Shown: piece after piece, positions 38,377 through 63,855 of the stretch
Position numbering within the stretch: the stretch's first letter is position 1
How the letters are laid out: each line of letters opens with the position of its first letter
Assembly (NCBI GenBank): GCA_037349105.1
Contig: JAYJMM010000123.1
Coordinates: 5,952,001 to 6,016,000 of the forward strand
Reading direction: 5' to 3'
DNA: 64,000 nucleotides
From: Limnomonas spitsbergensis
Lineage: Eukaryota; Chlorophyta; Chlorophyceae; Chlamydomonadales
The notes under the pieces: generated by a model
What the model was told of the DNA's origin: nothing
Databases searched by the model: none
What the model saw: only the letters and a program-made list of their open reading frames with translations
Made by a program: the position numbers and the translations under genes

Positions 38377-39901
38377 CTACCACAGACCTGTTGCAGCGGA
38401 TCGGCCGCCAGCGCCAGCGCCAACGCCCCGGCGCTTCAGCCTCAGCGGCGTGTTAGAGACGACGGAGATCCACCCTTGCTGAGTCGCCGGCTCCTCCGAA
38501 ACAGACGCAAGCAGCGCGGCGCCGTCAAACTTGTTGCAAACCACCTCGACACCATCGTAAGCGGTGTACAGCGCCAGCGTGGCAGCCGTCGACTGTGCGC
38601 CAATCAGCGCCATGATCCTCGCGGTGTTGTCGTAGCTGCCGGTGGCAAGCTGCTGGCCGTCCGGGCTGAAGGCGACGCTCGTCACCCAATGCGTGTGGCC
38701 GTCGAGCGTGGTGATGACACGGTCAGAGACAATGTCCCACACCTTGGCTGTCATGTCGTTGCTGCCGGTGGCCAGCTGCTGGCCGTCGGGGCTGAACGCG
38801 ACACACGCCACGCCGTCGCTGTGGCCCTCGAGCAGCACGAGCGACTCGCCGCTCACCACGTCCCACACGATGGCGGTGCAGTCATAGCTGCTGGTCGCCA
38901 GCTGCGTGTCGTCGGGGCTGAACGCGAGGCACGTCACGCTACTCGTGTGCTCAGCCAGGATGCTTCGCAGCGTGGCCGTAGCAGAGATGGGCAGAGTGGC
39001 CTCTTGCTGGCGGACGGACGCTGCAGCTGATGCCCCCGCCCCGGACACGGCATTCACTGCTCTGTCCACCATGTTGCCCCTGCTGTCAGCATGGGCAGCC
39101 TCGGGCACCGCTGCAGCGATGCTCCGGTCCAAGCGGGCCGCCCATTCGTCGGGACAGCTCTGCGCAGTCGTCAAGCTTGCGGTGGCGGAGTCGTCCCTGA
39201 TCACCTTGCCGCCAGAGCCTCGTCCCATGAACGCCATAACTGGCTGGTTGTGGTTCTGCCCGTTCAACCCCGTCGCCTTGCCCCCCGTGCGCGTCCGGTC
39301 GGGCACACTGCCACGCCCGCTGCTCTTAGTACCGACGTACTTAGACCAGGCCCGGCCGCCGGTCACGCGAACGTCCCACAGCCGCGCCGAGTTGTCATTG
39401 CTGCCGGTCGCAAGCGACTTGCCGTCGCTGCTGAACGCGATGCACGTTATCCCGTTCGAATACGTCAGCAGCGTCGTTATCAGCGCGCCGGTCGACGAGT
39501 CCCACAGCTTCACCGTGTTGTCAGAACTTCCGGTGGCAAGCAGGTGCCCGGACGGGTAAAACGCGACGCTCGTCACGGCGTCGGTGTGGCCGGTCAATGT
39601 CACACATCCCCCCACACTTGGCCGCGCACAGCTGGCGACGTCCCACACTTTTGCCGTCTTGTCGAAGCTGCCGGTCGCGACGCGCTTGCCGTCTGGGGTG
39701 AACACGACCGACGAAACCCAGTGCGAGTGCCCCTTCATGGTCGCCACCATCGCGCCGGACAGCGTATTCCACAGCCGCGCAGTGTTGTCATTGCTGCCGG
39801 TCACGAGGATCTTGCCGTTGGGACTAAACGCGAGACTGGTGACTTCCTTCAGCTGGGTCTCGGGCACGAACGAGGCGGTGCAGCTCTCAATGTCCCACAC
39901 C
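38377..39901 (-). CDS. WD40 gene, terminal exon with seven blades
   Basis: The acceptor CGCTTGTAG at 39902 supplies the third base of an Arg codon. Four blades, a Ser/Gly/Ala-rich linker (near 39350-39000) and three blades follow. The last WD repeat lacks its final strand (DNTARIMALIG replaces RIWD), and a 75-residue tail runs to TAG at 38377. Confidence 0.85.
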
Positions 39902-42900
39902 CTACAAGCGCAAATGTTTAAAGAGTGGAAGTGAGTGAGGGGTGTGGCGCAGATGTGCAAATAGTGGGAGTGAGTGAGGTGTGTGGGACATCGAAATCCA
40001 CAACCCTAAACATTCACCGGACCCTTCCCTGCTGTCTTGCCTATACAGACAGGGTTAAGGGTTTAGAGGCTTTAGGGTTTAGGGTTTAGAGGGTTTAAGA
40101 GATTCAGCATCATGCCCAAACCTGGTCGTTTTGCCAGAACTGCCCTTGCCAACGAGGCAGTTATTGGACGGGCAGGAATCAGAGATTAGGACGAGGATTA
40201 AGGTTTACAGGCCTGGTTTTAGAGTTTTGGCATCCGGCGCCTACCTAAACAACTCGTGGCTGCTCATGGCGACGTGGTGCTTGTAGGACGGTTATTACTG
40301 CGATACTCTATGACTCGATATGCAACGTCATGAACAGAGCGATACAGTTTGGGGACATATTTTAGGGCTGAACAAGAAGAATGCTGAAGAGATGACGCGC
40401 TGATGGGAAGAAACTAGATTCAGGGTTTAGGGCTTAGAACTCAGGGTGAATGGGTGACGTTATCCCCTACACCTGGACGCGCCTGCTCTCCGCTATTTTC
40501 AACGACCTCAGGGTGCTTCTCCCACCTTTGCTTAAGACTTCCTCGTGTGGCCAGTAGGGGGTACCTCACTATCTGGTCAAACCCGCCAATAGGGGGTACC
40601 TCACTATCTGGTCAAACCCGCCAGTAGGGGGTACCTCACTATCTGGTCAAACCCGCCAATAGGGAGTACCTCACTATCTGGTCAAACCCGCCAATAGGGG
40701 GTACCTCACTATCTGGTCAAACCCGCCAACAGGGGGTACCTCACTATCTGGTCAAACCCGCCAGTAGGGGGTACCTCACTATCTGGTCAAACCCGCCAAT
40801 AGGGGGTACCTCACTATCTGGTCAAACCCGCCAGTAGGGGGTACCTCACTATCTGGTCAAACACGCCAATAGGGGGTACCTCAGTATCTGGTCAAACCCG
40901 CCAATAGGGGGTACCTCACTATCTGGTCAAACCCGCCAATAGGGGGTACCTCACTATCTGGTCAAACCCGCCAGTAGGGGGTACCTCACTATCTGGTCAA
41001 ACCCGCCAGTGGCGACTTGCCATTCAACAGGCATGCAGAAGGCTGCCGAGATGGCACTGTTGGGAGAGCCTAGTTCAAACCCGCCAGTGGCAACTTGCCG
41101 TTCAACAGGCATGCAGAAGGCTGACGAGATGGCACTGCTGGAAAAGCCAAGTTCAACCCGCCAGTGGCGACTTGCCGTTCAACAGGTATGCAGAAGGCTG
41201 CCGAGATGGCACTGTTGGGAGAGCCTAGTTCAACCCGCCAGTGGCGACTTGCCGTTCAACAGGCATGCAGAAGGCAACCGAGACGGCACTGTTGGGAGAG
41301 CCTAGTTCAACCCGCCAGTGGCGACTTGCCGTTCAACAGGTATGCAGAAGGCTGCCGAGATGACAATGTTGGGAGAGCCTAGTTCAAACCCGCCAGTGGC
41401 GACTTGCCGTTCAACAGGTATGCCGAAGGCTACCGAGATGACACTGTTGGGAGAGCCTAGTTTAACCCGCCAGTGGCGACTTGCCGTTCAACAGGCATGC
41501 AGAAGGCTGCCGAGATGGCACTGTTGGAACAGCCTAGTTCAACCCGCCAGTGGCGACTTGCCGTTCAACAGACATGCAGAAGGCTACCGAGATGACACTG
41601 TTGGAACAGCCTAGTTCAACCCGCCAGTGGCGACTTGCCGTTCAACAGGCATGCAGAAGGCAACCGAGACGGCACTGTTGGGAGAGCCTAGTTCAACCCG
41701 CCAGTGGCGACTTGCCGTTCAACAGGCATGCAGAAGGCTGCCGAGATGGCACTGTTGGGAGAGCCTAGTTCACACCTGCCTGTGGTGACTTGCCATTCAA
41801 CAGGTCTGCAGAAGGCTGCCGAGATGACAATGTTGGGAGAGCCTAGTTCAACCTGCCAGTGGCGACTTGCCGTTCAACAGGTATGCAGAAGGCTGCCGAG
41901 ATGACACTGTTTAAACAGCCTAGTTCAACCCGCCAGTGGCGACTTGCCGTTCAACAGACATGCAGAAGGCTACCGAGATGACACTATTGGGAGAGCCTAG
42001 TTTAACCCGCCAGTGGCGACTTGCCGTTCAGTAGACATGCAGAAGGCTGCCGAGATGGCATTGTTGGAACAGCCTAGTTCAACCCGCCAGTGGCGACTTG
42101 CCGTTCAGCAGGCATGCAGAAGGCTGCCGAGATGGCACTGTTGGAACAGCCTAGTTCAACCCGCCAGTGGCGACTTGCCGTTCAACAGGTATGCAGAAGG
42201 CTGCCGAGATGACAATGTTGGGAGAGCCTAGTTCAAACCCGCCAGTGGCGACTTGCCGTTCAACAGGTATGCCGAAGGCTACCGAGATGACACTGTTGGG
42301 AGAGCCTAGTTTAACCCGCCAGTGGCGACTTGCCGTTCAACAGGCATGCAGAAGGCTGCCGAGATGGCACTGTTGGAACAGCCTAGTTCAACCCGCCAGT
42401 GGCGACTTGCCGTTCAACAGACATGCAGAAGGCTACCGAGATGACACTGTTGGAACAGCCTAGTTCAACCCGCCAGTGGCGACTTGCCGTTCAACAGGCA
42501 TGCAGAAGGCAACCGAGACGGCACTGTTGGGAGAGCCTAGTTCAACCCGCCAGTGGCGACTTGCCGTTCAACAGGCATGCAGAAGGCTGCCGAGATGGCA
42601 CTGTTGGGAGAGCCTAGTTCACACCTGCCTGTGGTGACTTGCCATTCAACAGGTCTGCAGAAGGCTGCCGAGATGACAATGTTGGGAGAGCCTAGTTCAA
42701 CCTGCCAGTGGCGACTTGCCGTTCAACAGGTATGCAGAAGGCTGCCGAGATGACACTGTTTAAACAGCCTAGTTCAACCCGCCAGTGGCGACTTGCCGTT
42801 CAACAGACATGCAGAAGGCTACCGAGATGACACTATTGGGAGAGCCTAGTTTAACCCGCCAGTGGCGACTTGCCGTTCAGTAGACATGCAGAAGGCTGCC

Positions 42901-45900
42901 GAGATGGCATTGTTGGAACAGCCTAGTTCAACCCGCCAGTGGCGACTTGCCGTTCAGCAGGCATGCAGAAGGCTGCCGAGATGGCACTGTTGGAACAGCC
43001 TAGTTCAACCCGCCAGTGGCGACTTGCCGTTCAACAGGTATGCAGAAGGCTGCCGAGATGACAATGTTGGGAGAGCCTAGTTCAAACCCGCCAGTGGCGA
43101 CTTGCCGTTCAACAGGCATGCAGAAGGCTGCCGAGATGACACTGTTGGGAGAGCCTAGTTCACAACTGCCTGTGGTGACTTGCCATTCAACAAGCATGCA
43201 GAAGGCTGCCGAGATGACACTGTTGGGAGAGCCTAGTTCAACCTGCCAGTGGCGACTTGCCGTTCAACAAGTATGCAGAAGGCTGCCAAAATGACACTGT
43301 TGGAACAGCCATGTTCAACCCGCCAGTGGCGACTTGCCGTTCAACAGGTATGCAGAAGGCTACGAAAATGAAACTGTTGAAAAGCATAGTTCAACCCGCC
43401 AGTGGCGACATGCCGTTCAACAGGTATGCAGAAGGCTACCAAAATGACACTGTTGGAACAGCCATGTTCAACCCGCCAGTGGCTACTTGCCGTTCAGCAG
43501 GCATGCAGAAGGCTGCCAAAATGACACTGTTGAAACAGCCAGGTTCAACCCGCTAGTGGCGACTTGCCGTTCAACAGGTATGCAGAAGGCTACCAAAATG
43601 ACACTGTTGGGATAGCCTTGTTCAACCCGCCAGTGGCGACTTGCTGTTCAACAGGTATGCAGAAGGCTACCGAGACGGCATTGTTGGGGAAGCCTAGTTC
43701 ACACCTGCCTGTGGTGACTTGCCGTTCAACAGGCATGCAGAAGGCTGCCGAGATGACACTGTTGGGAGAGCCTAGTTCAACCCGCCAGTGGCGACTTGCC
43801 GTTCAACAGGCATGCAGAAGGCTACCAAAATGACACTGTTGGAACAGCCAGGTTCAACCCGCTAGTGGCGACTTGCCGTTCAACAGGTATGCAGAAGGCT
43901 ACCAAAATGGCACTGTTGGGATAGCCTTGTTCAACCCGCCTGTGGCGACTTGCTGTTCAACAGGTATGCAGAAGGCTACCGAGACGGCACTGTTGGGGGA
44001 GCCTAGTTCACACCTGCCTGTGGTGACTTGCCGTTCAACAGGCATGCAGAAGGCTGCCGAGATGACACTGTTGGGAGAGCCTAGTTCAACCCGCCAGTGG
44101 CGACTTGCCGTTCAACAGGTATGCAGAAGGCTACGGAAGTGACACTGTTGGGAGAGCCTAGTTCAACCCGCCAGTGGCGACTTGCCGTTCAACAGACATG
44201 CAGAAGGCAACCGAGACGGCACTGTTGGGAGAGCCTAGTTCAAACCCGCCAGTGGCGACTTGCCGTTCAACAGGCATGCAGAAGGCTGCCGAGATGGCAC
44301 TGTTGGGAGAGCCTAGTTCACACCTGCCTGTGGTGATTGGCCATTACACAGGCATGCAGAAGGCTGCCGAGATGACAATGTTGGGAGAGCCTAGTTCAAC
44401 CTGCCAGTGGCGACTTGCCGTTCAACAGGTATGCAGAAGGCTGCCGAGATGACACTGTTGGAACAGCCATGTTCAACCCGCCAGTGGCGACTTGCCGTTC
44501 AACAGGTATGCAGAAGGCTACCGAGATGACACAGTTGGAACAGCCTAGTTCAACCCGCCAGTGGCGACTTGCCGTTCAACAAGCATGCAGAAGGCTACCA
44601 AAATGACACTGTTGGAACAGCCATGTTCAACCCGCCAGTGGCGACTTGCCGTTCAACAGGTATGCAGAAGGCTACCAAAAAGACACTGTTGGAAGAGCCT
44701 AGTTCAACCTGCCAGTGGCGACTTGCCATTCAACAGATGTGCAGAAGGCTACCGAGATGGCACTGATGGGAGAGCCTAGTTCAACCCGCCAGTGGCGACT
44801 TGCCGTTCAACAGGTATGCAGAAGGCTACCGAGATGACACTGTTGGGAGATCCTAGTTCAAACCCGCCAGTGGCGACTTGCCGTTCAACAGGCATGCAGA
44901 AGGCAACCGAGACGGCACTGTTGGGAGAGCCTAGTTCAAACCCGCCAGTGGCGACTTGCCGTTCAACAGGCATGCAGAAGGCTGCCGAGATGGCACTGTT
45001 GGGAGAGCCTAGTTCACACCTGCCTGTGGTGACTTGCCATTGAACAGGCATGCAGAAGGCTGTCGAGATAACACTGTTGGGAGAGCCTAGTTCAACCTGC
45101 CAGTGGCAACTTGCCGTTCAACAGGTATGCAGAAGGCTGCCGAGATGACACTGTTGGAAGAGCCTAGATCAACCCGCCAGTGGCGACTTGCCGTTCAACA
45201 GACATGCAGAAGGCTACGAAGATGACACTGTTGGAACAGCCTAGTTCAACCCGCCAGTGGCGACTTGCCGTTCAACAGGCATGCAGAAGGCTACCGAGAT
45301 GACACTGTTGGGAGAGCCTAGTTTAACCCGCCAGTGGCGACTTGCCGTTCAACAGGCATGCAGAAGGCTGCCGAGATGGCACTGTTGGAACAGCCTAGTT
45401 CAACCCGCCAGTGGCGACTTGCCGTTCAACAGGTATGCAGAAGGCTACCGAGATGACACTGTTGGGAGAGCCTAGTTCAACCCGCCAGTGGCGACTTGCC
45501 GTTCAACAGGCATGCAGAAGGCTGCCGAGATGGCACTGTTGGAACAGCCTAGTTCAACCCGCCAGTGGCGACTTGCCGTTCAACAGGCATGCAGAAGGCT
45601 GCCGATATGACAATGTTGGGAGAGCCTAGTTCACACCTGCCTGTGGTGAATTGCCGTTCAACAGGCATGCAGAAGGCTGCCGAGATGACACTGTTGGGAG
45701 AGCCTAGTTCAACCCGCCAGTGGCGACTTGCCGTTCAACAGGTATGCAGAAGGCTACCGAGATGGCACTGTTGGAACAGCCTAGTTCAACACGCCAGTGG
45801 CGACTTGCCGTTCAACAGGTATGCAGAAGGCTACCGAGATGACACTGTTGGGAGAGCCTAGTTCAACCCGCCAGTGGCGACTTGCCGTTCAACAGGCATG

Positions 45901-48900
45901 CAGAAGGCTACCAAAATGACACTGTTGGGAGAGCCTAGTTCAACCCGCCAGTGGCGACTTGCCGTTCAACAGGTATGCAGAAGGCTACCAAAATGACACT
46001 GTTGGGAGAGTCTTGTTCAACCCGCCAGTGGCGACTTGCTGTTCAACAGGTATGCAGAAGGCTACCGAGATGACACTGTTGGGAGAGCCTAGTTCACACC
46101 TGCCTGTGGTGACTTGCCGTTCAACAGGCATGCAGAAGGCTGCCGAGATGACACTGTTGGGAGAGCCTAGTTCAACCCGCCAGTGGCGACTTGCCGTTTA
46201 ACAGGTATGCAGAAGGCTACCGAGATGACACTGTTGGAACAGCCTAGTTCAACCTGCCAGTGGCGACTTGCCGTTCAACAGGCATGCAGAAGGCTGCCGA
46301 GATGGCACTGTTGGAAGAGCCTAGTTCACAACTGCCTGTGGTGACTTGCCGTTCAACAGACATGCAGAAGGCTGCTGAGATGACACTGTTGGGAGAGCCT
46401 AGTTCAACCCGCCAGTGGCGACTTGCCGTTCAACAGGTATGCAGAAGGCTACCGAGATGACACTGTTGGAACAGCCTAGTTCAACCCGCCAGTGGCGACT
46501 TGCCGTTCAACAGGTATGCAGAAGGCTGCCGAGATGGCACTGTTGGAAGAGCCTAGTTCACAACTGCCTGTGGTGACTTGCCGTTCAACAGGCATGCAGA
46601 AGGCTGCTGAGATGACACTGTTGGGAGAGCCTAGTTCAACCCGCCAGTGGCGACTTGCCGTTGAACAGGTATGCAGAAGGCTACCGAGATGACACTGTTG
46701 GAACAGCCTAGTTCAACCCGCCAGTGGCGACTTGCCGTTCAACAGGTATGCAGAAGGCTACCGAGATGAAACTGTTGGGAGAGCCTAGTTCAACCCGCCA
46801 GTGGCGACTTGCCGTTCAACAGGCATGCAGAAGGCTACCAAAATGACACTGTTGGAACAGCCATGTTCAACCCGCCAGTGGCGACTTGCCGTTCAACAGG
46901 TATGCAGAAGGCTACCAAAATGACACTGTTGGAACAGCCATGTTCAACCCGCCAGTGGCGACTTGCCGTTTAACAGGTATGCAGAAGGCAACCGATATGA
47001 CACTGTTGGGAGAGCCTAGTTCAAACCGCCAGTGGCGGCTTGCCGTTCAACAGGTATGCAGAAGGCTACCGAGATGACACTGTTGGGAGAGCCTAGTTCA
47101 ACCCGCCAGTGGCGACTTGCCGTTCAACAGGTATGCAGAAGGCTGCCGAGATGGCACTGTTGGGAGAGCCTAGTTCACACCTGCCTGTGGTGACTTGCCA
47201 TTGAACAGGCATGCAGAAGGCTGTCGAGATAACACTGTTGGGAGAGCCTAGTTCAACCTGCCAGTGGCGACTTGCCGTTCAACAGGTATGCAGAAGGCTG
47301 CCGAGATGACACTGTTGGAAGAGCCTAGATCAACCCGCCAGTGGCGACTTGCCGTTCAACAGACATGCAGAAGGCTACGAAGATGACACTGTTGGAACAG
47401 CCTAGTTCAACCCGCCAGTGGCGACTTGCCGTTCAACAGGCATGCAGAAGGCTACCGAGATGACACTGTTGGGAGAGCCTAGTTTAACCCGCCAGTGGCG
47501 ACTTGCCGTTCAACAGGCATGCAGAAGGCTGCCGAGATGGCACTGTTGGAACAGCCTAGTTCAACCCGCCAGTGGCGACTTGCCGTTCAACAGGTATGCA
47601 GAAGGCTACCGAGATAACACTGTTGGAACAGCCATGTTCAACCCGCCAGTGGCGACTTGCCGTTTAACAGGCATGCAGAAGGCTACCGAGATGGCACTGT
47701 TGGAACAGCCTAGTTCAACCCGCCAGTGGCGACTTGCCGTTCAACAGGCATGCAGATGGCTGCCGAGATGACACTGTTGGGAGAGCCTAGTTCACAACTG
47801 CCTGTGGTGACTTGCCGTTCAACAGGCATGCAGAAGGCTGCCGAGATGACACTGTTGAGAGAGCCTTGTTCAACCCGCCAGTGGCGACTTGCCGTTCAAC
47901 AGGCATGCAGAAGGCTACCGAGATGACACTGTTGGGAGAGCCTAGTTCAACCCGCCAGTGGCGACTTGCCGTTCAACAGGTATGCAGAAGGCTGCCGAGA
48001 TGGCACTGTTGGAAGAGCCTAGTTCACAACTGCCTGTGGTGACTTGCCGTTCAACAGGCATGCAGAAGGCTGCTGAGATGACACTGTTGGGAGAGCCTAG
48101 TTCAACCCGCCAGTGGCGACTTGCCGTTCAACAGGTATGCAGAAGGCTACCGAGATGACACTGTTGGAACAGCCTAGTTCAACCCACCAGTGGCGACTTG
48201 CCGTTCAACAGGTATGCAGAAGGCTACCGAGATGAAACTGTTGGGAGAGCCTAGTTCAACCCGCCAGTGGCGACTTGCCGTTCAACAGGCATGCAGAAGG
48301 CTACCAAAATGACACTGTTGGAACAGCCATGTTCAACCCGCCAGTGGCGACTTGCCGTTCAACAGGTATGCAGAAGGCTACCAAAATGACACTGTTGGAA
48401 CAGCCATGTTCAACCCGCCAGTGGCGACTTGCCGTTTAACAGGTATGCAGAAGGCAACCGATATGACACTGTTGGGAGAGCCTAGTTCAACCCGCCAGTG
48501 GCGGCTTGCCGTTCAACAGGTATGCAGAAGGCTACCGAGATGACACTGTTGGGAGAGCCTAGTTCAACCCGCCAGTGGCGACTTGCCGTTCAACAGGTAT
48601 GCAGAAGGCTGCCGAGATGGCACTGTTGGGAGAGCCTAGTTCACACCTGCCTGTGGTGACTTGCCATTGAACAGGCATGCAGAAGGCTGTCGAGATAACA
48701 CTGTTGGGAGAGCCTAGTTCAACCTGCCAGTGGCAACTTGCCGTTCAACAGGTATGCAGAAGGCTACCGAGATGACACTGTTGGAACAGCCTAGTTCAAC
48801 CCGCCAGTGGCGACTTGCCGTTCAACAGGTATGCAGAAGGCTGCCGAGATGGCACTGTTGGAAGAGCCTAGTTCACAACTGCCTGTGGTGACTTGCCGTT

Positions 48901-51900
48901 CAACAGGCATGCAGAAGGCTGCTGAGATGACACTGTTGGGAGAGCCTAGTTCAACCCGCCAGTGGCGACTTGCCGTTCAACAGGTATGCAGAAGGCTACC
49001 GAGATGACACTGTTGGAACAGCCTAGTTCAACCCGCCAGTGGCGACTTGCCGTTCAACAGGTATGCAGAAGGCTACCGAGATGAAACTGTTGGGAGAGCC
49101 TAGTTCAACCCGCCAGTGGCGACTTGCCGTTCAACAGGCATGCAGAAGGCTACCAAAATGACACTGTAGGAACAGCCATGTTCAACCCGCCAGTGGCGAC
49201 TTGCCGTTCAACAGGTATGCAGAAGGCTACCAAAATGACACTGTTGGAACAGCCATGTTCAACCCGCCAGTGGCGACTTGCCGTTTAACAGGTATGCAGA
49301 AGGCAACCGATATGACACTGTTGGGAGAGCCTAGTTCAACCCGCCAGTGGCGGCTTGCCGTTCAACAGGTATGCAGAAGGCTACCGAGATGACACTGTTG
49401 GGAGAGCCTAGTTCAACCCGCCAGTGGCGACTTGCCGTTCAACAGGTATGCAGAAGGCTGCCGAGATGGCACTGTTGGGAGAGCCTAGTTCACACCTGCC
49501 TGTGGTGACTTGCCATTGAACAGGCATGCAGAAGGCTGTCGAGATAACACTGTTGGGAGAGCCTAGTTCAACCTGCCAGTGGCAACTTGCCGTTCAACAG
49601 GTATGCAGAAGGCTGCCGAGATGACACTGTTGGAAGAGCCTAGATCAACCCGCCAGTGGCGACTTGCCGTTCAACAGACATGCAGAAGGCTACGAAGATG
49701 ACACTGTTGGAACAGCCTAGTTCAACCCGCCAGTGGCCACTTGCCGTTCAACAGGCATGCAGAAGGCTACCGAGATGACACTGTTGGGAGAGCCTAGTTT
49801 AACCCGCCAGTGGCGACTTGCCGTTCAACAGGCATGCAGAAGGCTGCCGAGATGGCACTGTTGGAACAGCCTAGTTCAACCCGCCAGTGGCGACTTGCCG
49901 TTCAACAGGTATGCAGAAGGCTACCGAGATAACACTGTTGGAACAGCCATGTTCAACCCGCCAGTGGCGACTTGCCGTTTAACAGGCATGCAGAAGGCTA
50001 CCGAGATGGCACTGTTGGAACAGCCTAGTTCAACCCGCCAGTGGCGACTTGCCGTTCAACAGGCATGCAGATGGCTGCCGAGATGACACTGTTGGGAGAG
50101 CCTAGTTCACAACTGCCTGTGGTGACTTGCCGTTCAACAGGCATGCAGAAGGCTGCCGAGATGACACTGTTGAGAGAGCCTTGTTCAACCCGCCAGTGGC
50201 GACTTGCCGTTTAACAGGTATGCAGAAGGCTACCAAAATGACACTGTTGGAACAGCCTAGTTCAACCCGCCATTGGCGACTTGCCGTTCAACAGGTATGC
50301 AGAAGGCTACCGAGATGACACTGTTGGAACAGCCTAGTTCAACCCGCCAGTGGCGACTTGCCGTTCAAAAAGCATGCAGAAGGCTACCAAAATGACACTG
50401 TTGGAACAGCCATGTTCAACCCGCCAGTGGCGACTTGCCGTTCAACAGGTATGCAGAAGGCTACCAAAAAGACACTGTTGGAACAGCCATGTTCAACCCG
50501 CCAGTGGCGACTTGCTGTTCAACAGGTATGCAGAAGGCTACCGAGATGACAATGTTGGAACAGCCTAGTTCAACCCGCCAGTGGCGACATGCCGTTCAAC
50601 AGGTATGCAGAAGGCTACCGAGATGACACTGTTGGAACAGCCTAGTTCAACCCGCCAGTGGCGACTTGCCGTTCAACAGGCATGCAGAAGGCTACCGAGA
50701 TGGCACTATTGGGACAGCCTAGTTCAACCCGCCAGTGGCGACTTGCCGTTCAACAGGTATGCAGAAGGCTACCAAAATAACACTGTTGGAAGAGCCTAGT
50801 TCAACCTGCCAGTGGCGACTTGCCATTCAACAGATGTGCAGAAGGCTACCGAGATGGCACTGATGGGAGAGCCTAGTTCAACCCGCCATTGGCGACTTGC
50901 CGTTCAACAGGTATGCAGAAGGCTACCGAGATGACACTGTTGGAACAGCCTAGTTCAACCCGCCAGTGGCGACTTGCCGTTCAAAAAGCATGCAGAAGGC
51001 TACCAAAATGACACTGTTGGAACAGCCATGTTCAACCCGCCAGTGGCGACTTGCCGTTCAACAGGTATGCAGAAGGCTACCAAAAAGACACTGTTGGAAC
51101 AGCCATGTTCAACCCGCCAGTGGCGACTTGCTGTTCAACAGGTATGCAGAAGGCTACCGAGATGACAATGTTGGAACAGCCTAGTTCAACCCGCCAGTGG
51201 CGACATGCCGTTCAACAGGTATGCAGAAGGCTACCGAGATGACACTGTTGGAACAGCCTAGTTCAACCCGCCAGTGGCGACTTGCCGTTCAACAGGCATG
51301 CAGAAGGCTACCGAGATGGCACTATTGGGACAGCCTAGTTCAACCCGCCAGTGGCGACTTGCCGTTCAACAGGTATGCAGAAGGCTACCAAAATAACACT
51401 GTTGGAAGAGCCTAGTTCAACCTGCCAGTGGCGACTTGCCATTCAACAGATGTGCAGAAGGCTACCGAGATGGCACTGATGGGAGAGCCTAGTTCAACCC
51501 GCCAGTGGCGACTTGCCGTTCAACAGGTATGCAGAAGGCTACCGAGATGACACTGTTGGGAGATCCTAGTTCAAACCCGCCAGTGGCGACTTGCCGTTCA
51601 ACAGGCATGCAGAAGGCAACCGAGACGGCACTGTTGGGAGAGCCTAGTTCAAACCCGCCAGTGGCGACTTGCCGTTCAACAGGCATGCAGAAGGCTGCCG
51701 AGATGGCACTGTTGGGAGAGCCTAGTTCACACCTGCCTGTGGTGACTTGCCATTGAACAGGCATGCAGAAGGCTACCGAGATGACACTGTTGGGAGAGCC
51801 TAGTTCAACCTGCCAGTGGCAACTTGCCGTTCAACAGGTATGCAGAAGGCTGCCGAGATGACACTGTTGGAACAGCCTAGATCAACCCGCCAGTGGCGAC

Positions 51901-54900
51901 TTGCCGTTCAACAGACATGCAGAAGGCTACGAAGATGACACTGTTGGAACAGCCTAGTTCAACCCGCCAGTGGCGACTTGCCGTTCAACAGGTATGCAGA
52001 AGGCTACCGAGATGACACTGTTGGGAGAGCCTAGTTTAACCCGCCAGTGGCGACTTGCCGTTCAACAGGCATGCAGAAGGCTGCCGAGATGGCACTGTTG
52101 GAACAGCCTAGTTCAACCCGCCAGTGGCGACTTGCCGTTCAACAGGTATGCAGAAGGCTACCGAGATGACACTGTTGGGAGAGCCTAGTTCAACCCGCCA
52201 GTGGCGACTTGCTGTTCAACAGGTATGCAGAAGGCTACCGAGACGGCACTGTTGGGAGAGCCTAGTTCACACCTGCCTGTGGTGACTTGCCGTTCAACAG
52301 GCATGCAGAAGGCTGCCGAGATGACACTGTTGGGAGAGCCTAGTTCAACCCGCCAGTGGCGACTTGCCGTTTAACAGGTATGCAGAAGGCTACCGAGATG
52401 ACACTGTTGGAACAGCCTAGTTTAACCCGCCAGTGGCGACTTGCCGTTCAACAGGCATGCAGAAGGCTGCCGAGATAACAATGTTGGGAGAGCCTAGTTC
52501 ACACCTGCCTGTGGTGACTTGCCGTTCAACAGGCATGCAGAAGGCTGCCGAGATGACACTGTTGGGAGAGCCTAGTTCAACCCGCCAGTGGCGACTTGCC
52601 GTTTAACAGGTATGCAGAAGGCTACCGAGATGACACTGTTGGAACAGCCTAGTTCAACCCGCCAGTGGCGACTTGCCGTTCAACAGGTATGCAGAAGGCT
52701 ACCGAGATGACACTGTTGGAACAGCCTAAGTCAACCCGCCAGTGGCGACTTGCCGTTCAACAGGTATGCAGAAGGCTACCGAGATGACACTGTTGGGAGA
52801 GCCTAGTTTAACCCGCCAGTGGCGACTTGCCGTTCAACAGGCATGCAGAAGGCTGCCGAGATGGCACTGTTGGAACAGCCTAGTTCAACACGCCAGTGGC
52901 GACTTGCCGTTCAACAGGTATGCAGAAGGCTACCGAGATGACACTGTTGGGAGAGCCTAGTTCAACCCGCCAGTGGCGACTTGCCGTTCAACAGGCATGC
53001 AGAAGGCTGCCGAGATGGCACTGTTGGAACAGCCATGTTCAACCCGCCAGTGGCGACTTGCCGTGCAACAGGCATGCAGAAGGCTTCCGAGATGACATTG
53101 TTGGGAGAGCCTAGTTCACACCTGCCTGTGGTGACTTGCCGTTCAACAGGCATGCAGAAGGCTGCCGAGATGACACTGTTGGAAGAGCCTAGTTCAACCC
53201 GCCAGTGGCGACTTGCCGTTTAACAGGTATGCAGAAGGCTACCGAGATGACACTGTTGGAACAGCCTAGTTCAACCCGCCAGTGGCGACTTGCCGTTCAA
53301 CAGGTATGCAGAAGGCTACGGAGATGACACTGTTGGGAGAGCCTAGTTCAACCCGCCAGTGGCGACTTGCCGTTCAACAGGCATGCAGAAGGCTACCAAA
53401 ATGACACTGTTGGGAGAGCCTAGTTCAACCCGCCAGTGGCGACTTGCCGTTCAACAGGTATGCAGAAGGCTACCAAAATGACACTGTTGGGAGAGCCTTG
53501 TTCAACCCGCCAGTGGCGACTTGCTGTTCAACAGGTATGCAGAAGGCTACCGAGACGGCACTGTTGGGAGAGCCTAGTTCACACCTGCCTGTGGTGACTT
53601 GCCGTTCAACAGGCATGCAGAAGGCTGCCGAGATGACACTGTTGGGAGAGCCTAGTTCAACCCGCCAGTGGCGACTTGCCGTTTAACAGGTATGCAGAAG
53701 GCTACCGAGATGACACTGTTGGAACAGCCTAGTTTAACCTGCCAGTGGCGACTTGCCGTTCAACAGGCATGCAGAAGGCTGCCGAGATGACAATGTTGGG
53801 AGAGCCTAGTTCACACCTGCCTGTGGTGACTTGCCGTTCAACAGGCATGCAGAAGGCTGCCGAGATGACACTGTTGGGAGAGCCTAGTTCAACCCGCCAG
53901 TGGCGACTTGCCGTTTAACAGGTATGCAGAAGGCTACCGAGATGACACTGTTGGAACAGCCTAGTTCAACCCGCCAGTGGCGACTTGCCGTTCAACAGGT
54001 ATGCAGAAGGCTACCGAGATGACACTGTTGGGAGAGCCTAGTTCAACCCGCCAGTGGCGACTTGCCGTTCAACAGGCATGCAGAAGGCTACCAAAATGAC
54101 ACTGTTGGAACAGCCATGTTCAACCCGCCAGTGGCGACTTGCCGTTCAACAGGTATGCAGAAGGCTACCAAAATGACACTGTTGGAACAGCCATGTTCAA
54201 CCCGCCAGTGGCGACTTGCCGTTCAACAGGTATGCAGAAGGCTACCAAAATGACACTGTTGGAACAGCCTAGTTCAACCCGCCAGTGGCGACTTGCCGTT
54301 TAACAGGTATGCAGAAGGCTACCGAGATGACACTGTTGGAACAGCCTAGTTCAACCCGCCAGTGGCGACTTGCCGTTCAACAGGCATGCAGAAGGCTGCC
54401 GAGATGACAATGTTGGGAGAGCCTAGTTCACACCTGCCTGTGGTGACTTGCCGTTCAACAGGCATGCAGAAGGCTGCCGAGATGACACTGTTGGGAGAGC
54501 CTAGTTCAACCCGCCATTGGCGACTTGCCGTTTAACAGGTATGCAGAAGGCTACCGAGATGACACTGTTGGAACAGCCTAGTTCAACCCGCCAGTGGCGA
54601 CTTGCCGTTCAACAGGTATGCAGAAGGCTACCGAGATGACACTGTTGGGAGAGCCTAGTTCAACCCGCCAGTGGCGACTTGCCGTTCAACAGGCATGCAG
54701 AAGGCTACCAAAATGACACTGTTGGAACAGCCTAGTTCAACCCGCCAGTGGCGACTTGCCGTTCAAAAAGCATGCAGAAGGCTACCAAAATGACACTGCT
54801 GGAACAGCCATGTTCAACCCGCCAGTGGCGATTTGCTGTTCAACAGGTATGCAGAAGGCTACCGAGATGACACTGTTGGGAGAGCCTAGTTCAACCCGCC

Positions 54901-57900
54901 AGTGGCGGCTTGCCGTTCAACAGGTATGCAGAAGGCTACCAAAATGACACTGTTGGAACAGCCATGTTCAACCCGCCAGTGGCGACTTGCCGTTCAACAG
55001 GTTTGCAGAAGGCTACCGAGATGGCACTGTTGGAACAGCCTGGTTCAACCCGCCAGTGGCGACTTGCCGTTCAACAGGTATGCAGAAGGCTACCAAAATG
55101 ACACTGTTGGAACAGCCATGTTCAACCCGCCAGTGGCGACTTGCCGTTCAACAGGTAAGCAGAAGGCAAAAGAGATGACACTGTTGGAACAGCCATGTTC
55201 AACCCGCCAGTGGCGACTTGCCGTTTAACAGGTATGCAGAAGGCCACCGAGATGGCAATGTTGGAACAGCCTAGTTCAACCTGCCAGTGGCGACTTGCCG
55301 TTCAACAGGTATGTAGAAGGCTACCGAGATGGCACTGTTGGGACAGCCTAGTTCAAGGTTAAGGGCTTTGGACTTGAGAATCGGGGGTTAAGGATCAAAA
55401 TCCTAGATGTTCAAGTAACCTGTCCGGCCCCTACCTTGCAGTCTAGGCTAAGCTACTAGTTATGGGTCAAGAATCAAGGTTTTAGGGGTAAGGATCCAAA
55501 TCTCTTATCTTGTGGTCTAGACAGAGCTGCTGGTTTCGGGTTGATGGTTTAAGGCTTAGGGTTCAGCGTTGATCATCCAAATCCCTTACCAATCCCTTAC
55601 CATTCCCTTACCAATCCCTTACCATTCCCTTACCATTCCCTTACCAATCCCTTACCATTCCCTTACCAATCCCTTACCAATCCCTTACCATTCCCTTACC
55701 AATCCCTTACCAATCCCTTACCATTCCCTTACCATTCCCTTACCAATCCCTTACCAATCCCTTACCATTCCCTTACCAATCCCTTACCAATCCCTTACCA
55801 ATCCCTTACCAATCCTTTACCAATCCCTTACCATTCCCTTACCAATCCCTTACCAATCCCTTACCAATCCCTTACCTTGCAGTCTTGACAACCTGCTGGT
55901 TTAGGGTTGCGATTGAAGGGTTAAGGGTTAAGGTTACAGGATCCCAATCCCCTACCTTGCAGTCTTGTCAAAGCTGCCAGTAGCGACGTGCTGCTCGCTC
56001 GACGGGCAAAAGGCAACGGAAATGACGCCACTGGGATGGCCCTCAAGGGTGGCCAGCGCGGCGCCCCCGGCCTTAGCGTCCCATACTTTAGCGGTGTTGT
56101 CCATGCTGGCGCTGGCGAGCTGCCGCCCGTTGGAGCTGAAGGAAACGCTCGTGACCCGGTGTGTGTGGCCCTCAAGCGTTAGACAGGGCCTGTGCAGCGT
56201 TCAGTCATGCCATTTATCAGCGCACTTCAGCTACACCCTCAGCTACACGTTAGCTCCATGTTAGCTTTACCCTCAGCTACACATTAGCTCCAAGGTAGCT
56301 TCACCTCAGCTCCACCTTACCTTCACCCTCAGCTACACGTTAGCTACACGTTAGCTTCACCCTCAGCTACACATTAGCTACATGCAAGTGACACAGTGGG
56401 TATCGCCTTCGGGCGTCAGACACGGCCAATGCACAGTCTGCAACGTTGAGCAATCGTGTCATTTGAAGCACACTTCAGCTACATGGCAGCCGCATTTTGG
56501 CCCGTGGCCGGGAGGGGTGTGGGTCTGTGGGACTTTAATACTGCGCCCGGGGTGCAGCATGCGCCACAGCCCCTCCACCCCATCCTGCTCCAGAAGGTGT
56601 GAATCCTGTGAGGAGTAATCCTAAGGAGTAATCAAAATCCAGGAAAACGTGAAAATAAGGATTCACTCCAGAAGAAGTGGACCCTGTGAGGAGCATGGCA
56701 TGTCCCTTTCTGTTTCACAATTCTAGTAGGAAACTGCTAGTTTCAGCTCCTCTGCTAGTGTGGAAGGGAATAAGGAGGCTTTGCCCCTCACCTAGAAACC
56801 AATCCCTCAACCCTCAACCCCTCACCTAGAAACCACCCCCTCAACCCAAAAACCCTCACCTAGAAACCACTCCCTCAACCCTTAACTCCTCACCTAGAAA
56901 CTACCCCCTCAACCCTCAACCCCATACCTACAAACCGCTCCCCAAACCCCAAGCCCTCACCTAGAAACCGCTCCTGGGATGCAGCACGCCACGACGTCCC
57001 ACACCATGACCATGTTGTCGTGGCTGCCCGTCGCCAGCCGCTGGCCGTCGGCGTCGAACGCGACGCTCGTCACGCTGTTGGCGTGGCTCGCCAGGCAGGC
57101 CGCCTCGGCGCCGTACACCAGGTCCCAGAGCCGCGCGGTCCGGTCGTTGCTGCCGGTCGCCAGCAGTAGCCCGTTGGGGTTGAAAGCGACGCTCGTCACC
57201 ACGTTGGTATGGCCTTCGAGCGTAAGTGTCGTACATCCCAGTACGACGTCCCACACCTTTGCGGTTTTGTCGCTGCTGCCGGTCGCCAGGTGCGACCCGT
57301 CGGGGCTGAAGGCGACGCTGTTTACCATGCTTGTGTGGCCCTGCATGTTTCAGCATCCAGATTTAAGGGGTCAAGGAAGGGGCCTGTCACTGAGGGGGTC
57401 GGACGAGTCCCCCGACAACGGCATTCGACCCATGGGATGGGGTCTTCCCGCACAAAAACTTTACTGGCGTCCAGGACTTAAGCTTTTTAATTTCGAAGGA
57501 AACTTAGTTTATTTTCCTGTCGAGCTTTTTGGGTGGAAAGGCTCCGTCCCGGCCGACCCCCCTTGTTTGGGGGGACTCGTCCGACCCCCGAAGTGACAGG
57601 CCCCTTGGGCAAGGTTGAGGATTCAGGGTTTCACGTCAAATGTAGTTTTGAAGGTTAAGGGTTAAGGGCAGAAGGCGACGTTGTTGACCAAGCTGGTACG
57701 GCCCTGCTTAGTACATAGGTTTCAGAGTTGGAGGTTCAGGCGTGCAATAAAAAAAAGCAGCTGGGGTGAATCAACACACCTTGAGCGTCACCGTACTCTG
57801 TCCGCTGGTCAGGTCCCATATCCTGGCAGTCTTATCTTCGCTGCCAGTGGCCATCTGCCGCCCGTCGGCACTGAAAGTGACAGCCTTGACGGACTCTGTG

Positions 57901-60409
57901 TGGCCCTGGTAGTGGCGGAACAGTTATGGTTCAGCTACACTTCAGCTACATCACGGCCCTGACAGTGGCGGAACAGTTATGGTTCAGCTAGACTTCAGCT
58001 ATATCACGGCCCTGGCAGTGGCAGAACCTTTAGCACAGTTTAAATTATCATGGTTCAGCTACATGTCAGCTACATCACGGCCTGCTGTGGCCGGGAGGAC
58101 CTGCCGCGGCAAGGCCCCGCTATGCCTGGGCTGCTGGCGGCGGCGGCCCCCCCCCAAGGTAGACCGGTGCACCCTGAAAATATTAACGCTTTGCGCCCCT
58201 CTCAAGCCTCACCAAACTCACCTGGACCCTAAACCCTAAACTCACCTGGAAGCTTAACCCTGAACTCACCTGGACCCTAAATCCGTAACCCTTAACCCAC
58301 CTGGACCTGGTTCATGTATGCGCGTCAGGTGTCAGAGCTTCATGTTCTCGCTGCATCCTAAGCCAGTCACCCTCACCCTCAACCCTTAACCCTCAAGAAA
58401 CCCTTGACTCACCTTAACTGTCAGCATGTTCTGCCCGCTTGCCAGGTCCCAGAGCCGCGTGTCCTCGCTGCACGTCGCCACCTGCCGCCCGTCGAAACTG
58501 TACGCCACGCACCTGACGGCCTCCTCGTGACCCTGCAACAGAAGATGAGGGCAGAAAATGAGGGTTCAGGGCTAAGAGGAGGGGCAGAGGATGAGGGTTC
58601 AGGGCTGACGGGAGGGGCAGAGGATGAGGGTTCAGGGCTGAGGGGAGGTACAGAGGATGAAGGTTCAGGGCTGAGGGGAGGGGCAGAGGATGAGGGTTCA
58701 GGGCTGAGGGGAGGTACAGAGGATGAGGGTTCAGGGCTGAGGGGAGGGGCAGAGGATGAGGGTTCAGGGCTGAGGAGAGGTACAGAGGATGAGGGTTCAG
58801 GGCTAAGGGGAGGTACAGAGGATGAGGGTTCAGGGCTGAGGGGAGGTACAGAGGATGAGGGTTCAGGGCTGAGGGGAGGTACAGAGGATGAGGCTTCAGG
58901 GCTGCGGGGAGGGGCAGAGGATGAGGGTTCAGGGCTGAGGGGAGGTACAGAGGCCAGACGGGCAAGAGGTCAAGGCTTGAGCCTGGGATCCTGTGGGCTG
59001 TACTCTGACTTAGCATTTTTAGGTCAACAGGCTGGGTTTCGTGAACCTGACGAGTGATCTACACCATCTGTTACACATAGACGCATGCGATCCACACCAT
59101 ATCTCACACATCACACACACATGTGATCCACACCACTTCTCACACATCACACACACATGTGATCCACACCATCTCTCACACATCACACACACATGTGATC
59201 CACACCACCTCTCACATCACACAAGAGATCCACACCACCTCTCAAGCACATACCCGCATGACCATGATGTCTGCCGGCCAGCCCTGTTGGCCACCCAGTC
59301 GCCTAGCGCACACCCATTGCCGCCGAAACCGACCAGCTGCCTCGCGGTACTTGGGGCTGGCCAGCAGCGGGCTGCCGGCGTCGTCGAGCGTCGTCGCCTC
59401 GATCGCATCGGGCTCGGCCTCAAAGGCGTTGAAGTAGCGGCGCAACCACCTGGAGCAGGGTGCAGGGCAGCAGATAAAGGTTCCAGGGTTACAGCTCACC
59501 CCCCACTCAGCATGTCCTCTGCACAGGGGTAAAGGGCAGCAGATAAAGGTTCCGGGGTTACAGGGCCATGCTCACCCCCCACTCAGCATGTCCTCTGCAC
59601 AGGGGTAAAGGGCAGCATATGAAGGTTTCAGGGTTACAGCTCACCCCCCACTTAGCATGTCCTCTGCACAGGGGTAAAGGGCAGCATATGAAGGTTTCAG
59701 GGTTACAGCTCATCCCCCACTCAGCATGTCCTCTGCACAAGGGTAAAGGACAGCATATGAAGGTTTCAGGGTAACAGCTCATATATATTCCCAAATAGAT
59801 AATTTTTTAATAATTTAGATCTCTTTATGATATTGAGTAACACCCACTTAGCATGTCCTCTGCTCAGGGTAAAGGGCAGCATATGAAGGCTTCATGGTTA
59901 CAGCTCACTCCCCACTCAGCATGTCCTCGGCACACTCTTTTAGGGGCAAAGGGGGGTGTACTTGTTTTGTACAGTCAATGTTCGCGGGCATGCCCTTGCT
60001 CCCACCCACCTCAGCTTGTCCTCAGCATACCCTTTTGAGGGCCAGGGTGGGGGCGTGTTTTATTTTCTAGTCAAAGTTTGGGGCGGGGTTTTGAGGGCGA
60101 GCACTCGCCACCTACCCACCTCAGCATGCTCTCAGCCCACTCTTCCGAGGTCCCTATTGGTTATGTTTCTTGTTTTATGTCTTTAATAGAAAGCCAATGG
60201 TAGAAGGTATGGGGGGATGCCCTCGCCCCCGTACACATCAGCGGCATAAGCCAGCCTGTCCTTGTCCTTAAGGGTATATAGTCAAGGTTTGGGGGCATGC
60301 ACTCGCGCCCAGCCCCCCACCCACCTCAGCACGTCCTTGGCATTAGCCGCGGCCTGTCCTCGTCCTTAATGGGTTCAGGGTTCAGGGTTGAGGTTTGAGG
60401 GTTGGGGGT

Positions 60410-60441
<32 letters not shown>

Positions 60442-63400
60442 GGCTTAGGGTTCAGTTTTAAAGGTTACCGTAAGGGTCTTACCCACCTCAGCGTGTCCTC
60501 GGCATAAGCGGGCCTGTCCTTGTCCTTCATGCCTCCGAGCGCCTTGACGATGCACGCGCCGTGTCCCGCGCGGAAAACACACTGTATGAAGCCCCACTCG
60601 GAGAGGGCTGCGGGGTGTGAACGGGTGCGGACGATGGACAGGGTCAGGGTTGACACCGTGTTTCAGACGGCATGCATCTTTAAGCTCATCGGCGCTTAAA
60701 AACACAAGCGCTTTGTCCGGCACGGAAAGCAAACCGTAAGAAGCCCCACCTGGGTGGCAGGGCATAGTTGTAGGGTGTGAACAGGTGTGAATTATGGGTT
60801 CTTTTAGGTTCCGTGAGTTTCAGATTTCATATATTCCCCTGCCCTGGGGGGAGCACGCTGGATGTCAAGTCCGAGTCAAGAGGTAGCTGCGGTGTGTCAG
60901 AATGGGTGTGAACGACAAGGCTTCACAGAGAATCCTCCCTTGCCCACTCCTTCCAATTCTCCATCGTCCAGTATGCAAGCACAGGCTCCCCCCCCCCCTC
61001 CCCAACACACCTTCCTTTCCTCCTCCACTTCCCTCCCTTACGATACTCCCACACCCACTCAATCTCCTATACCCTCTACTCCACCGTATATTTCTTTCGC
61101 TTGCACTTGACAAAGTGTGAGGCCGGCCGCCCAAGCCTAGGAAAATGGAGTGCCGCTCGGGAGCCTGGACCCCGATGCGGTGCGATACGCACAGGTCTCA
61201 GCCATCTGGAGGCGCGAACACAAAAAATGCCTGGGTGCGGTTTACGCTCACCGTCCCTCCCTCTCTCCCACCCAACCATTCCCTCTCTCCCACCCAACCA
61301 TTCCAACTCACCTGCCGTGAGCGGCAACACCACCTCCTCTCCGCCCTGGGCCAAGTGCAGCACCACATACTTCGACGTGTAGGCTGGAAGCTGCGGAGAG
61401 GTTGAGGAAACTGCGGATAATCCGAACAAGCTCCGCCTCGCGCCGTGCGCACTCTTGTCCCCGCCGCCGAGGCGGAAACTGGTACCGCTGACGCCGTGTC
61501 CGCTCCTGTTCCCGATCGGCACCACGTTTGTTTCGCTGCCGCCCCAGTGCACGCTCTTGTCGTCAGGGCCAGCGATGCTGCGATCGCTGTTGCGCTGAGC
61601 GCGCTTCTCCGTAGATTTGAGGTTGTTGCACCTAACTCCCCTCTCCGCGGATGCCTTGCAGCTTTCGCCGTATGCCGAGCTGTCCTTCCCCGACGCGTGA
61701 GGGCTTATGTCCGACGCGATCGGGTCCTTTCCCCTCGCCAAAGTACCCTTGCCCGATGCGTTTGGGTCCCTGCGTCGCACCGAGGACCGGCCCGCATCTC
61801 GCTCCTCTTCGTCCATGGGAAAGCTCGTCCGTCTGTACGCCTTTTTTATCTGCTGAAGCGACGGCCGCGACGTCTCCGGCTGCAGGCCGGCCCGACTGTT
61901 TTCCATCGCGGCGCCCGGAAGCTGCGGACCCGTGATCGAGGCGTCCAGGCTTGCCCAGCCCGCCCGCTGCAGCTCTATACTCACGGCGCTCTTGAGAGCC
62001 CCACGCATACTTTTGAGGCCAGGCTTGACAGTGGCCAGCGCCAGCACGTCGCGCAGCAGGTGCATGCCCATGACGCGGTGGCCGACGGCAACATCCACAA
62101 CATGGTGTCCGCTCTTGGCTCCGTCCATGAGCCAATCGCTGTAAAGACAGAGGGGGCAGCAGAGGGGTGGGTGAGTGTGTGGGGGGGGGCTGAGGAGAGA
62201 GGGTTCCTATGGGACGGGAGAGGGAGTGTGTTGGGGGGCAGATGGAAAGGAGGAGGGGAGGTGTGTGCTTTGAGAGGCAGCATGTAGTAGGGGGAAAGCA
62301 TGGAAGGGCAGGCAAATAAGGGGAGGGGTGCATGCGGGGAGTGGAGGGGGGGAAGGAAGGGGAGGAATCTGGTGGGGCAGCGGGGAGTGACTCTGGGGGG
62401 ATGGGGCCATGGGGGCCATGTTTCTTGTGATGGATGGGGGTGCGCCAGGACAGGAGCGCAGCGCCCAAATGGCGAACAAAGCTGAACTAACAGTGGAAGG
62501 ACAAAATTCGGGAGCAGACACAGGGCAGAGACCGCGAGGCGACAACTTGAAGACAGCTTTCAGAGCTTAGGGTTTAGGGTTTGAGGCTGACTGAGCTGTG
62601 GAGGAAAAAAGGACCAGTGACGGACACGGGGCATACCATGTAGTGCCAGTTTTCCAGTGGCTTGCTGCGGCAGCAACTCCAGGTTTGGGCCCCACTAGTA
62701 TGGAGGTATGCAGTTTTGACAGAAACGGGTCCCTCTGCAGGTGCAGGTGCAGAAGCTGCTGCCTGGCATTTACGATGATCGGGATTTTGCGGATTTTAAG
62801 CATTGAACCCTTAACTAGGCCTTCAGTAACTGATTTTTTTTCTGTACCTGGGCACCTCGAGTAGGAGCAGGGTGTGGAGTTTAGGCGCGGAACCCCGAAC
62901 TGGAGCTGTGTACCTGAAGGACTGAAGTGTGGATTGATGTGTGGGGTTGAGGCTCTTCGCCCCTACCCAGGCCTTCAAACCTGAGCGATTTGTGCAGCAG
63001 GTACACATGGTGGTCCGCCAGGTAGAAGAGACAGCCCCAGCCCGGCAGGGACTCCAAGTGGCTTGCGATCCCCAGGAGCTGCAGCATCGAGTGAGACAGA
63101 GGCTCCTGGGCAGCCATCAGAACCTAGACGCAGCAGAGACAGCGTATCAGTCAGAGTCAGTGGGTGTCGGTGTAACTGGCATTTGAATGTGAAGTTACAG
63201 TGTCAGTGTCAGAGTCAGCGAGTGTCGGTGTGAGTGCCATTTGAATTTGTTTTGGATTTTTAGTGTCATTGTCAGAGGCAGTGAGCGTGGGTGAAAGTGT
63301 TATTTCAATTATCATAGGCAGTGCCAGAGTCAGTGAGTGTCGGCGTGAGTGTCATTTGAATTTGAATTATCGGAGTCAGTGCCATTTTAATTTGAATTAT

Positions 63401-63647: not shown

Positions 63648-63778
63648 CTGCACACAGTGGGGAGGGGGGGGTGCAGGGTCAGCTGGCATGACGAGGAGGC
63701 GGGGATGCAGGGCCAGCTGCCTTGGCGAATGCGAGGGGTTTTCAGTGCAAGCTGACTAGTGCCTTGGCGAGGGAGCAG

Positions 63779-63855
63779 TTGCAGCCCTCAGCAGAGGGGT
63801 CCATCAAGCGCTGAACATTGTGGGGACGGGGGGGTGCAGGGTCAGCTGGCATGGC
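63779..63855 (-). pseudogene. Duplicated acceptor half of the first visible WD40-gene exon
   Basis: GTTGCAGCCCTCAGCAGAGG and GGTCCATCAAGCGCTGAAC copy 63615-63652, and the similarity continues through GGGTGCAGGGTCAGCTGGCA. The acceptor AG is altered (TGAACATTG for TGCACACAG). Confidence 0.75.

Follow-up and report, generated by a model that had tools for sequence, protein, structure and literature searches.

A 64,000-nucleotide stretch of the genome of the green alga Limnomonas spitsbergensis (contig JAYJMM010000123.1, C123:5952001-6016000; genome 260 Mb, 124 contigs), referred to here as the window, was analyzed computationally. Its minus strand carries a gene coding for WD40 blades, and intron 9 of this host gene contains a 77-bp satellite. 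The gene was described by a ten-exon model with GT/AG borders. Exons 1 to 8 lie at 63647-63534, 63123-62981, 62138-61312, 60607-60487, 59449-59254, 58532-58413, 57905-57780 and 57340-56961 on the minus strand, and exons 9 and 10 are given in Table 1. The model is stop-free over 1261 codons, including the join of 55956 to 39901. Blade 7 is complete only via the in-phase join of the end of exon 9 (GSFDKTA) with the start of exon 10 (RVWDIES). A first-pass annotation of this DNA, made from the letters alone, had placed the array in the intron directly after its source exon, between phase-matched splice sites at 55956 and 39901. At the sequence level, the open model agrees with this placement. With 16 kb, intron 9 far exceeds the other modelled introns of the host gene (<1.1 kb).

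Pfam WD40 matched nine stretches within the last 579 residues of the predicted protein. A NACHT-like P-loop (VLAGAGTGKST), recognized as a motif by eye, is located upstream in the stretch L031; the exons between this P-loop and exon 1 are outside the model. The first 150 N-terminal residues matched proteins of Chlamydomonas eustigma (66% identity, 81% of the query covered), Chlamydomonas sp. UWO 241 (65% and 57%) and Cymbomonas (50% and 67%). This search gave 13 matches, and the named ones were all chlorophyte. Homologues in C. eustigma, C. sp. UWO 241 and Cymbomonas carry NACHT-type names or WD40 Pfam domains. A broader protein search yielded 7896 WD40 matches, few of which were named among the best 120. 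Because of the best protein matches, the host gene is most likely a NACHT-WD40 STAND gene with the NLR-like plan of a P-loop followed by a WD40 propeller. An open stretch with the motifs YFVSHAW and WIDCIAINQ was observed upstream of the NACHT region (L032, 8605-8880, minus strand) and is perhaps the N-terminal domain of the host gene.

The satellite was delimited with Tandem Repeats Finder (TRF) and split into units of 77 bp (n = 151), 78 bp (n = 34) and 76 bp (n = 1). Both TRF and the 186 units obtained by cutting agree with the number of copies estimated before (about 186). Mean pairwise identity among the units was 0.911, and 104 of the 186 are distinct. Exact repeats of 969 bp (lag 849), 635 bp (lag 616) and 473 bp (lag 2315) were found inside the array, and runs of up to 12 consecutive identical units occur at two places. 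The unit runs fit a copying of multi-unit blocks, which would be the underlying mechanism, and show no sign of simple one-ended growth. A higher-order repeat of 463 bp was proposed by TRF, yet identity at lag 6 (0.909) was not above that at other lags. Recurrence is limited to scattered unit runs without a higher-order period. The consensus of the 77-bp unit has stops in all frames of both strands, and the longest stop-free stretch of the array comprises 121 codons on the plus strand. An expressed in-frame repeat, already rejected in the first-pass annotation because of the 77-bp period, is unsupported.

The 77-bp consensus aligned without gaps to positions 55961-56041 in exon 9, with 53 of 81 bases identical. 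For the part 55973-56041, about 45 of 69 identities had been counted by hand, and the alignment gave exactly 45. The local alignment score of the unit against exon 9 was 50. Comparison with shuffled sequence had been set beforehand as the test, and none of 2000 dinucleotide shuffles reached this score (mean 17.9, maximum 34). When the arrays and the source were excluded, the next-best place in the window scored 33 and is a weak remnant within the last part of intron 9. The third-ranked place (score 30) lies on the plus strand near 24000, in no blade of the host gene. Other blades of the host gene scored at most 26 against the unit, about half of the exon 9 score, and blades drawn at random from eight other loci at most 23. 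A search of the whole genome (260 Mb) with the unit, in which very common words are skipped, returned 186 matches, equal to the copy number; the matches listed, for which the locus is known, are all at this locus. On the minus strand the unit reads NSVISVAFCIPVERQVATGGLN followed by a stop, the counterpart in the exon being SGVISVAFCPSSEQHVATGSFD, in line with the blade-like peptide noticed earlier. Compared singly with exon 9, the units showed identities of 0.58-0.70 (mean 0.645). The initial proposal that a coding blade had turned into an intronic satellite thus stands with respect to the origin from the adjacent exon. It does not stand for a whole blade, the source being 27 codons of blade 7.

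The 77-bp array had been described as lying in the intron after its source exon. It is indeed present, and the intron additionally holds two more arrays and single copies from the same junction (Table 1). Together, the arrays cover 15,104 of the 16,054 bases (about 94%). The 35-bp unit is identical to the exon 9 junction at 24 of 35 positions with a local score of 30, which none of 2000 shuffles reached, but the maximum of this null distribution (29) is close. The 77-bp and the 35-bp arrays meet inside a shared stretch, CCACTGGCGGGTTTGA, near position 41000. Since the transition from 77 to 35 bp falls within this shared stretch, the order of the arrays keeps the order of the exon. The two units share 16 of 20 columns with each other, compared to 13 and 17 with the exon, which does not settle a common single-copy origin. 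In a by-eye comparison without shuffle test, the 11-bp unit corresponds to intron positions +2..+12 (TAGGGGATTGG) at 10 of 11 bases. By sequence, all three arrays appear to match one junction, the exon 9 donor. Copies of the exon end are present on both flanks of the arrays.

Table 1. Features of the host gene and exon-derived copies and arrays in its introns (window coordinates).
Feature	Position	Strand	Details
Exon 9 (source)	55956..56189	minus	WD40 blade 6 and beginning of blade 7
Exon 10	38379..39901	minus	remainder of blade 7, then more WD40 blades, to stop codon; Pfam WD40
Intron 9	39902..55955	minus	16054 bp
77-bp satellite	41000..55356	minus	186.0 copies, 91% matches, TRF; unit = exon 9 -86..-6
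35-bp array	40550..41008	minus	13.1 copies, TRF; unit = exon 9 end and donor (-28..+7)
11-bp array	55580..55876	minus	27 copies of TAAGGGATTGG, TRF; immediately follows copied exon end and donor
Single copy, exon 9 end and donor	55864..55896	minus	30/34 identical; 0/20 shuffles
Decayed single copy, exon 9 end and donor	55476..55530	minus	40/55 identical
Decayed single copy, exon 9 end and donor	55428..55460	minus	28/33 identical
Weak satellite-unit remnant	40378..40422	minus	score 33; reached by 2/400 shuffles
Weak exon 9 remnant	40259..40291	minus	score 30; reached by 4/400 shuffles
Decayed copy, exon 9 end, donor and intron start	40086..40174	minus	58/91; score 38; 0/400 shuffles; downstream of arrays
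Copy of exon 1 start and acceptor, preceding intron	63778..63817	minus	37/40; 0/200 shuffles
Copy of exon 1 end and donor, intron 1	63451..63488	minus	32/38; 0/200 shuffles
Copy of exon 4 start and acceptor, intron 3	60720..60779	minus	43/60; 0/200 shuffles
Copy of exon 4 end and donor, intron 4	60319..60365	minus	40/47; 0/200 shuffles
69-bp tandem repeat with exon 4 end and donor motif (by eye)	59570-59781		TRF
Copy of exon 8 start and acceptor, intron 7	57666..57707	minus	35/42; 0/200 shuffles
Copy of exon 8 end and donor, intron 8	56850..56873	minus	22/24; 0/200 shuffles; inside 34-bp array 56784-56974 (TRF)
Copy of exon 9 start and acceptor, intron 8	56388..56433	minus	34/46; 0/200 shuffles

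Exon edges of the whole host gene were compared with their own introns. Each of the 19 edges was represented by 40 exon and 12 intron bases, and a score above every shuffle was counted as positive. In the first run (200 shuffles each, 20 for intron 9), where the edges of exon 1 were off by 2 and 3 bases and that of exon 4 by 1, 8 of 19 edges had a copy in their own intron. Two runs with the corrected model, in which intron 9 was represented by its first 1500 or its last 700 bases, gave 9/19 and 8/19, the ninth edge being the borderline acceptor of I6. Control comparisons were positive for 1/19 edges on the reverse strand and for 0/19 in another intron. The contrast of own-intron copies with these controls indicates that local tandem duplication crosses splice sites. 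All eight copies of the first run span the splice site. They belong to the donors of I1, I4, I8 and I9 and to the acceptors of I0, I3, I7 and I8.

Random windows of 52 bases from introns 1-8 recurred within the same intron in 44/96 and 52/96 cases (two runs). Exon-interior windows were positive against the adjacent introns in 3/86 cases in each of two runs. A second copy within their own coding stretch was found for 2/39 coding 52-mers of exon 3 and for 2/18 of the non-blade part of exon 10, none of them at z>5. In the host gene, duplication affects exon edges much more frequently than the coding interior. The interior is presumably kept in single copy by selection at the protein level. Intron 5 (58533-59253) is nearly all self-duplicated, unlike intron 2.

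Other WD40-coding loci were located by a PF00400 search of the genome (150 scored matches of 877 candidates). The sample consisted of the host gene and eight 10-kb stretches with 47 inter-blade gaps, and 94 blade/intron tests were carried out with 100 shuffles each. Gaps longer than 3000 bases were truncated to this length, and those of <150 bases excluded. In the nine stretches 23 of 94 tests scored above all 100 shuffles, 18 of them at z>5, compared to 0/94 on the reverse strand and 2% on average for other gaps. No WD40 test reached z>5 in L043 and L047. In L045 (C106:799001-809000, offsets 7740-8530, minus strand) seven copies spaced 98 bp apart come after a blade end with its donor and are still very close to the exon in sequence. 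This array is a younger stage of the formation of exon-derived arrays. In L042 (C16:1071001-1081000) a WD40 exon start recurs three times, at minus-strand offsets 6278, 6382 and 6487, in the intron preceding its exon at 6704; TRF gave a period of 100 for these copies. WD40 matches in three 311-residue open reading frames at C89:859164, 868813 and 878381, spaced by ~9.6 kb, perhaps represent a tandem gene cluster.

Eight protein kinase introns were analyzed in addition. Here, 2/16 tests were positive (0/16 on the reverse strand), one being an HRDL-region copy (34/42) and the other an exact match of 18 bases. The former is a decayed copy of the HRDL-region exon within the next intron (L053, C16:1172500-1174900). 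Judged from these comparisons, exon-derived copies and arrays appear to occur in other sampled genes, too.

Taken together, the satellite is very probably an exon-derived intronic minisatellite that arose by local tandem duplication, the same process acting in other introns and genes. A duplication tract that extended past the 3' end of exon 9, across the donor, would have placed a copy of this exon edge in intron 9. Splicing at the outer, authentic sites would excise this copy with the intron and hide it from selection. The copy would then have decayed, and sub-segments may have been amplified in exon order, first 77 bp of exonic sequence and then 35 bp comprising the exon end and donor, while an 11-bp piece of the intron start was amplified next to another copy. 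Unequal exchange or slippage would copy runs of several units and hold the units ~91% alike. The same duplication process would act, unevenly, in the other introns of the host gene and in other genes. Directly observed are the homology, the arrangement of the copies, the open frame across intron 9, the recurring unit runs and the outcome of the shuffle, reverse-strand and other-intron controls. We infer the order of these steps, the exchange mechanism, the neutrality of the copies and the use of the outer splice sites from the sequence.

Several observations weigh against this interpretation. Identity of the units to the exon shows no gradient along the array (Spearman -0.07, p 0.36), and therefore direction and order of growth are unreadable from the array. 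At an identity of only 65% between unit and exon, the ancestor is undatable. Differences between unit and exon fall on third codon positions in 14/28 cases (chance 0.02), and 14/27 residues are identical (chance 0.046), which is a weak hint that part of the divergence, in either the copy or the exon, took place under coding constraint; change on the side of the exon would explain this bias equally well. In the random intron windows, the controls were positive in 7/96 (reverse strand) and 8/96 (other intron) cases. Self-duplicated windows are distributed unevenly among the introns (4/38 in intron 2, 5/32 in intron 3 and 28/32 in intron 5), so the average of 52/96 rests on repeat-rich introns. 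As intron duplication is uneven, the data do not support a duplication of edges at the general rate of introns. The samples from other loci are small and domain-picked, with domain ends used as a proxy for exon ends. Among the 23 rows listed at z>4 in the WD40 tests, another gap outscored the own gap in three. For 53 tandem repeats from the nine WD40 stretches, a comparison that excluded repeats overlapping a coding blade, and hence the 98-bp array of L045, gave only five matches to a blade of the same locus and two to a blade of another locus. In the kinase sample the best of seven other introns passed in 2/16 tests (scores 46 and 33). Because these other introns pass equally, the kinase result is only suggestive.

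Alternatively, the array might descend from a once functional extra blade, that is, from a translated tandem duplication of an exon that later lost its frame and was then amplified. The unit retains the most conserved blade motifs VISVAFC and VATG. Six codon changes are synonymous (chance 0.087), and the excess at third positions points in the same direction. However, this is a weak bias, and the same one would probably result from synonymous change along the exon lineage. Moreover, the copies are edge fragments, all eight edge copies span a splice site, and no whole blade exons were found among them. We therefore regard an extra blade as unlikely. The length of intron 9 compared to the other modelled introns could also suggest a regulatory giant intron, in which the array influences splicing, transcription timing or chromatin. 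Scans of the window for RNA families (Rfam) and for tRNAs gave 0 matches each, and so there is no known ribozyme-type satellite. The units show homogenization. Evidence for a function of the array was not seen, and no test able to show constraint was made. A regulatory role is, in our judgment, distinctly improbable.

The NLR-like plan of NACHT and many WD40 blades, together with partial blade copies adjoining exons, brings to mind a store of gene-conversion donors, by which the array and the ghost copies would diversify the blades. Yet similar copies exist at the non-blade exons 1 and 4 and in 2/16 kinase tests, plain intron windows are duplicated as well, and the unit consensus contains stops. 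Such a store is very improbable. Finally, WD40 blades are alike, and exon 9 itself yields scores of 31 to 62 with the other blades of the host gene, but a satellite from elsewhere that resembles exon 9 by chance or by general WD40 similarity is scarcely conceivable given 0/2000 shuffles, the half-sized scores of these same blades against the unit, the maximum of 23 in the blades sampled at other loci and the confinement of the listed genome matches to this locus.

The derivation of the satellite from its neighbouring exon by local duplication has precedents. In the available excerpts of one report, amphioxus 'mirage' minisatellites are described as tandem duplications of exon-intron boundaries in Adh3 and in the globin genes BflGb6 and BflGb9 (PMC3087553); an excerpted second report adds troponin C and PGBD5 (PMC3902484). 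Haplotypes of BflGb6 carry 3 and 6 units, and unit lengths range from 10 to 160 bp with the splice site spanned (PMC3087553). As excerpted, the globin study reports regular splicing and unstable length, and its authors proposed mirages as a source of new introns (PMC3087553). The arrays and copies described here resemble these mirages in their intronic position beside the authentic boundary, in their occurrence at 5' and 3' edges and in concerted units as in BflGb6. Both 5' and 3' boundaries of introns are affected. Concerted evolution is apparent from an identity of 0.911 among the units compared to 0.645 to the exon and from the exact multi-unit runs. The 35-bp unit (-28..+7) and 8/8 edge copies span the boundary, whereas the 77-bp unit ends at -6. 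In contrast to the 3 and 6 units in amphioxus, the array of intron 9 comprises 186 copies and 14.4 kb. It also differs from the mirages, as far as these are excerpted, in that its 77-bp unit is purely exonic and ends 5 bases before the junction, in its two sister arrays and in its chlorophyte host.

Tandem duplication across splice-like sequence is known to make exonic sequence intronic while the protein is unchanged (PMC3443670; potato RdRp, PMC4974935, both as excerpted). In the potato gene the duplicated stretch crosses an intron-exon boundary (PMC4974935). In these excerpted intron-gain cases a new intron arises, whereas intron 9 seems to be an existing intron that became longer. Human duplicated genes carry internal tandem repeats at exon-intron boundaries, with a mean of four 30-bp units, which lengthen introns (PMC2812944, excerpt). 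These repeats differ in being small, recent and situated in segmental duplications, and for most of them a known transcript keeps the repeat in an exon. The giant introns of Drosophila Y genes are likewise filled with satellites but are megabase-sized (PMC6508621, excerpt). No report of boundary minisatellites in green algae turned up among the entries listed by literature searches of limited coverage. The process is of a known kind with an extreme outcome, and the amphioxus precedent makes the case less unprecedented than first thought.

Some features of the window lie apart from the host gene. A 49-bp minisatellite (1308-8796; ~158 copies, 7.5 kb) has two plus-strand frames that are stop-free over >2500 codons. 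A C-rich 16-bp minisatellite of ~219 copies was found at 16266-19752. An open stretch on the plus strand (35462-35851) resembles a lipase-type exon by eye (NPDDIVPRVP), with no Pfam match at 0.01. Likewise, ten open reading frames elsewhere in the window had no Pfam match at this threshold.

The origin of a satellite is seldom traceable. Here it can be traced, the source coding exon still adjoining the array. Growth of introns by splice-site-spanning duplication becomes countable, with 8/19 exon edges in a single gene. Since the copies still resemble WD40 blades to a profile of the host gene's blades, they may confuse gene prediction. A genome-wide test of intron lengthening and of the start of tandem repeats becomes possible. 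More tentatively, and at somewhat less than an even chance, we propose that the introns of this alga grow largely by splice-site-blind local tandem duplication and are routinely filled with copies of flanking exons. Satellites would then be born from a gene's own coding sequence, and splicing would free exon edges to duplicate like intron DNA while the interiors stay single-copy.

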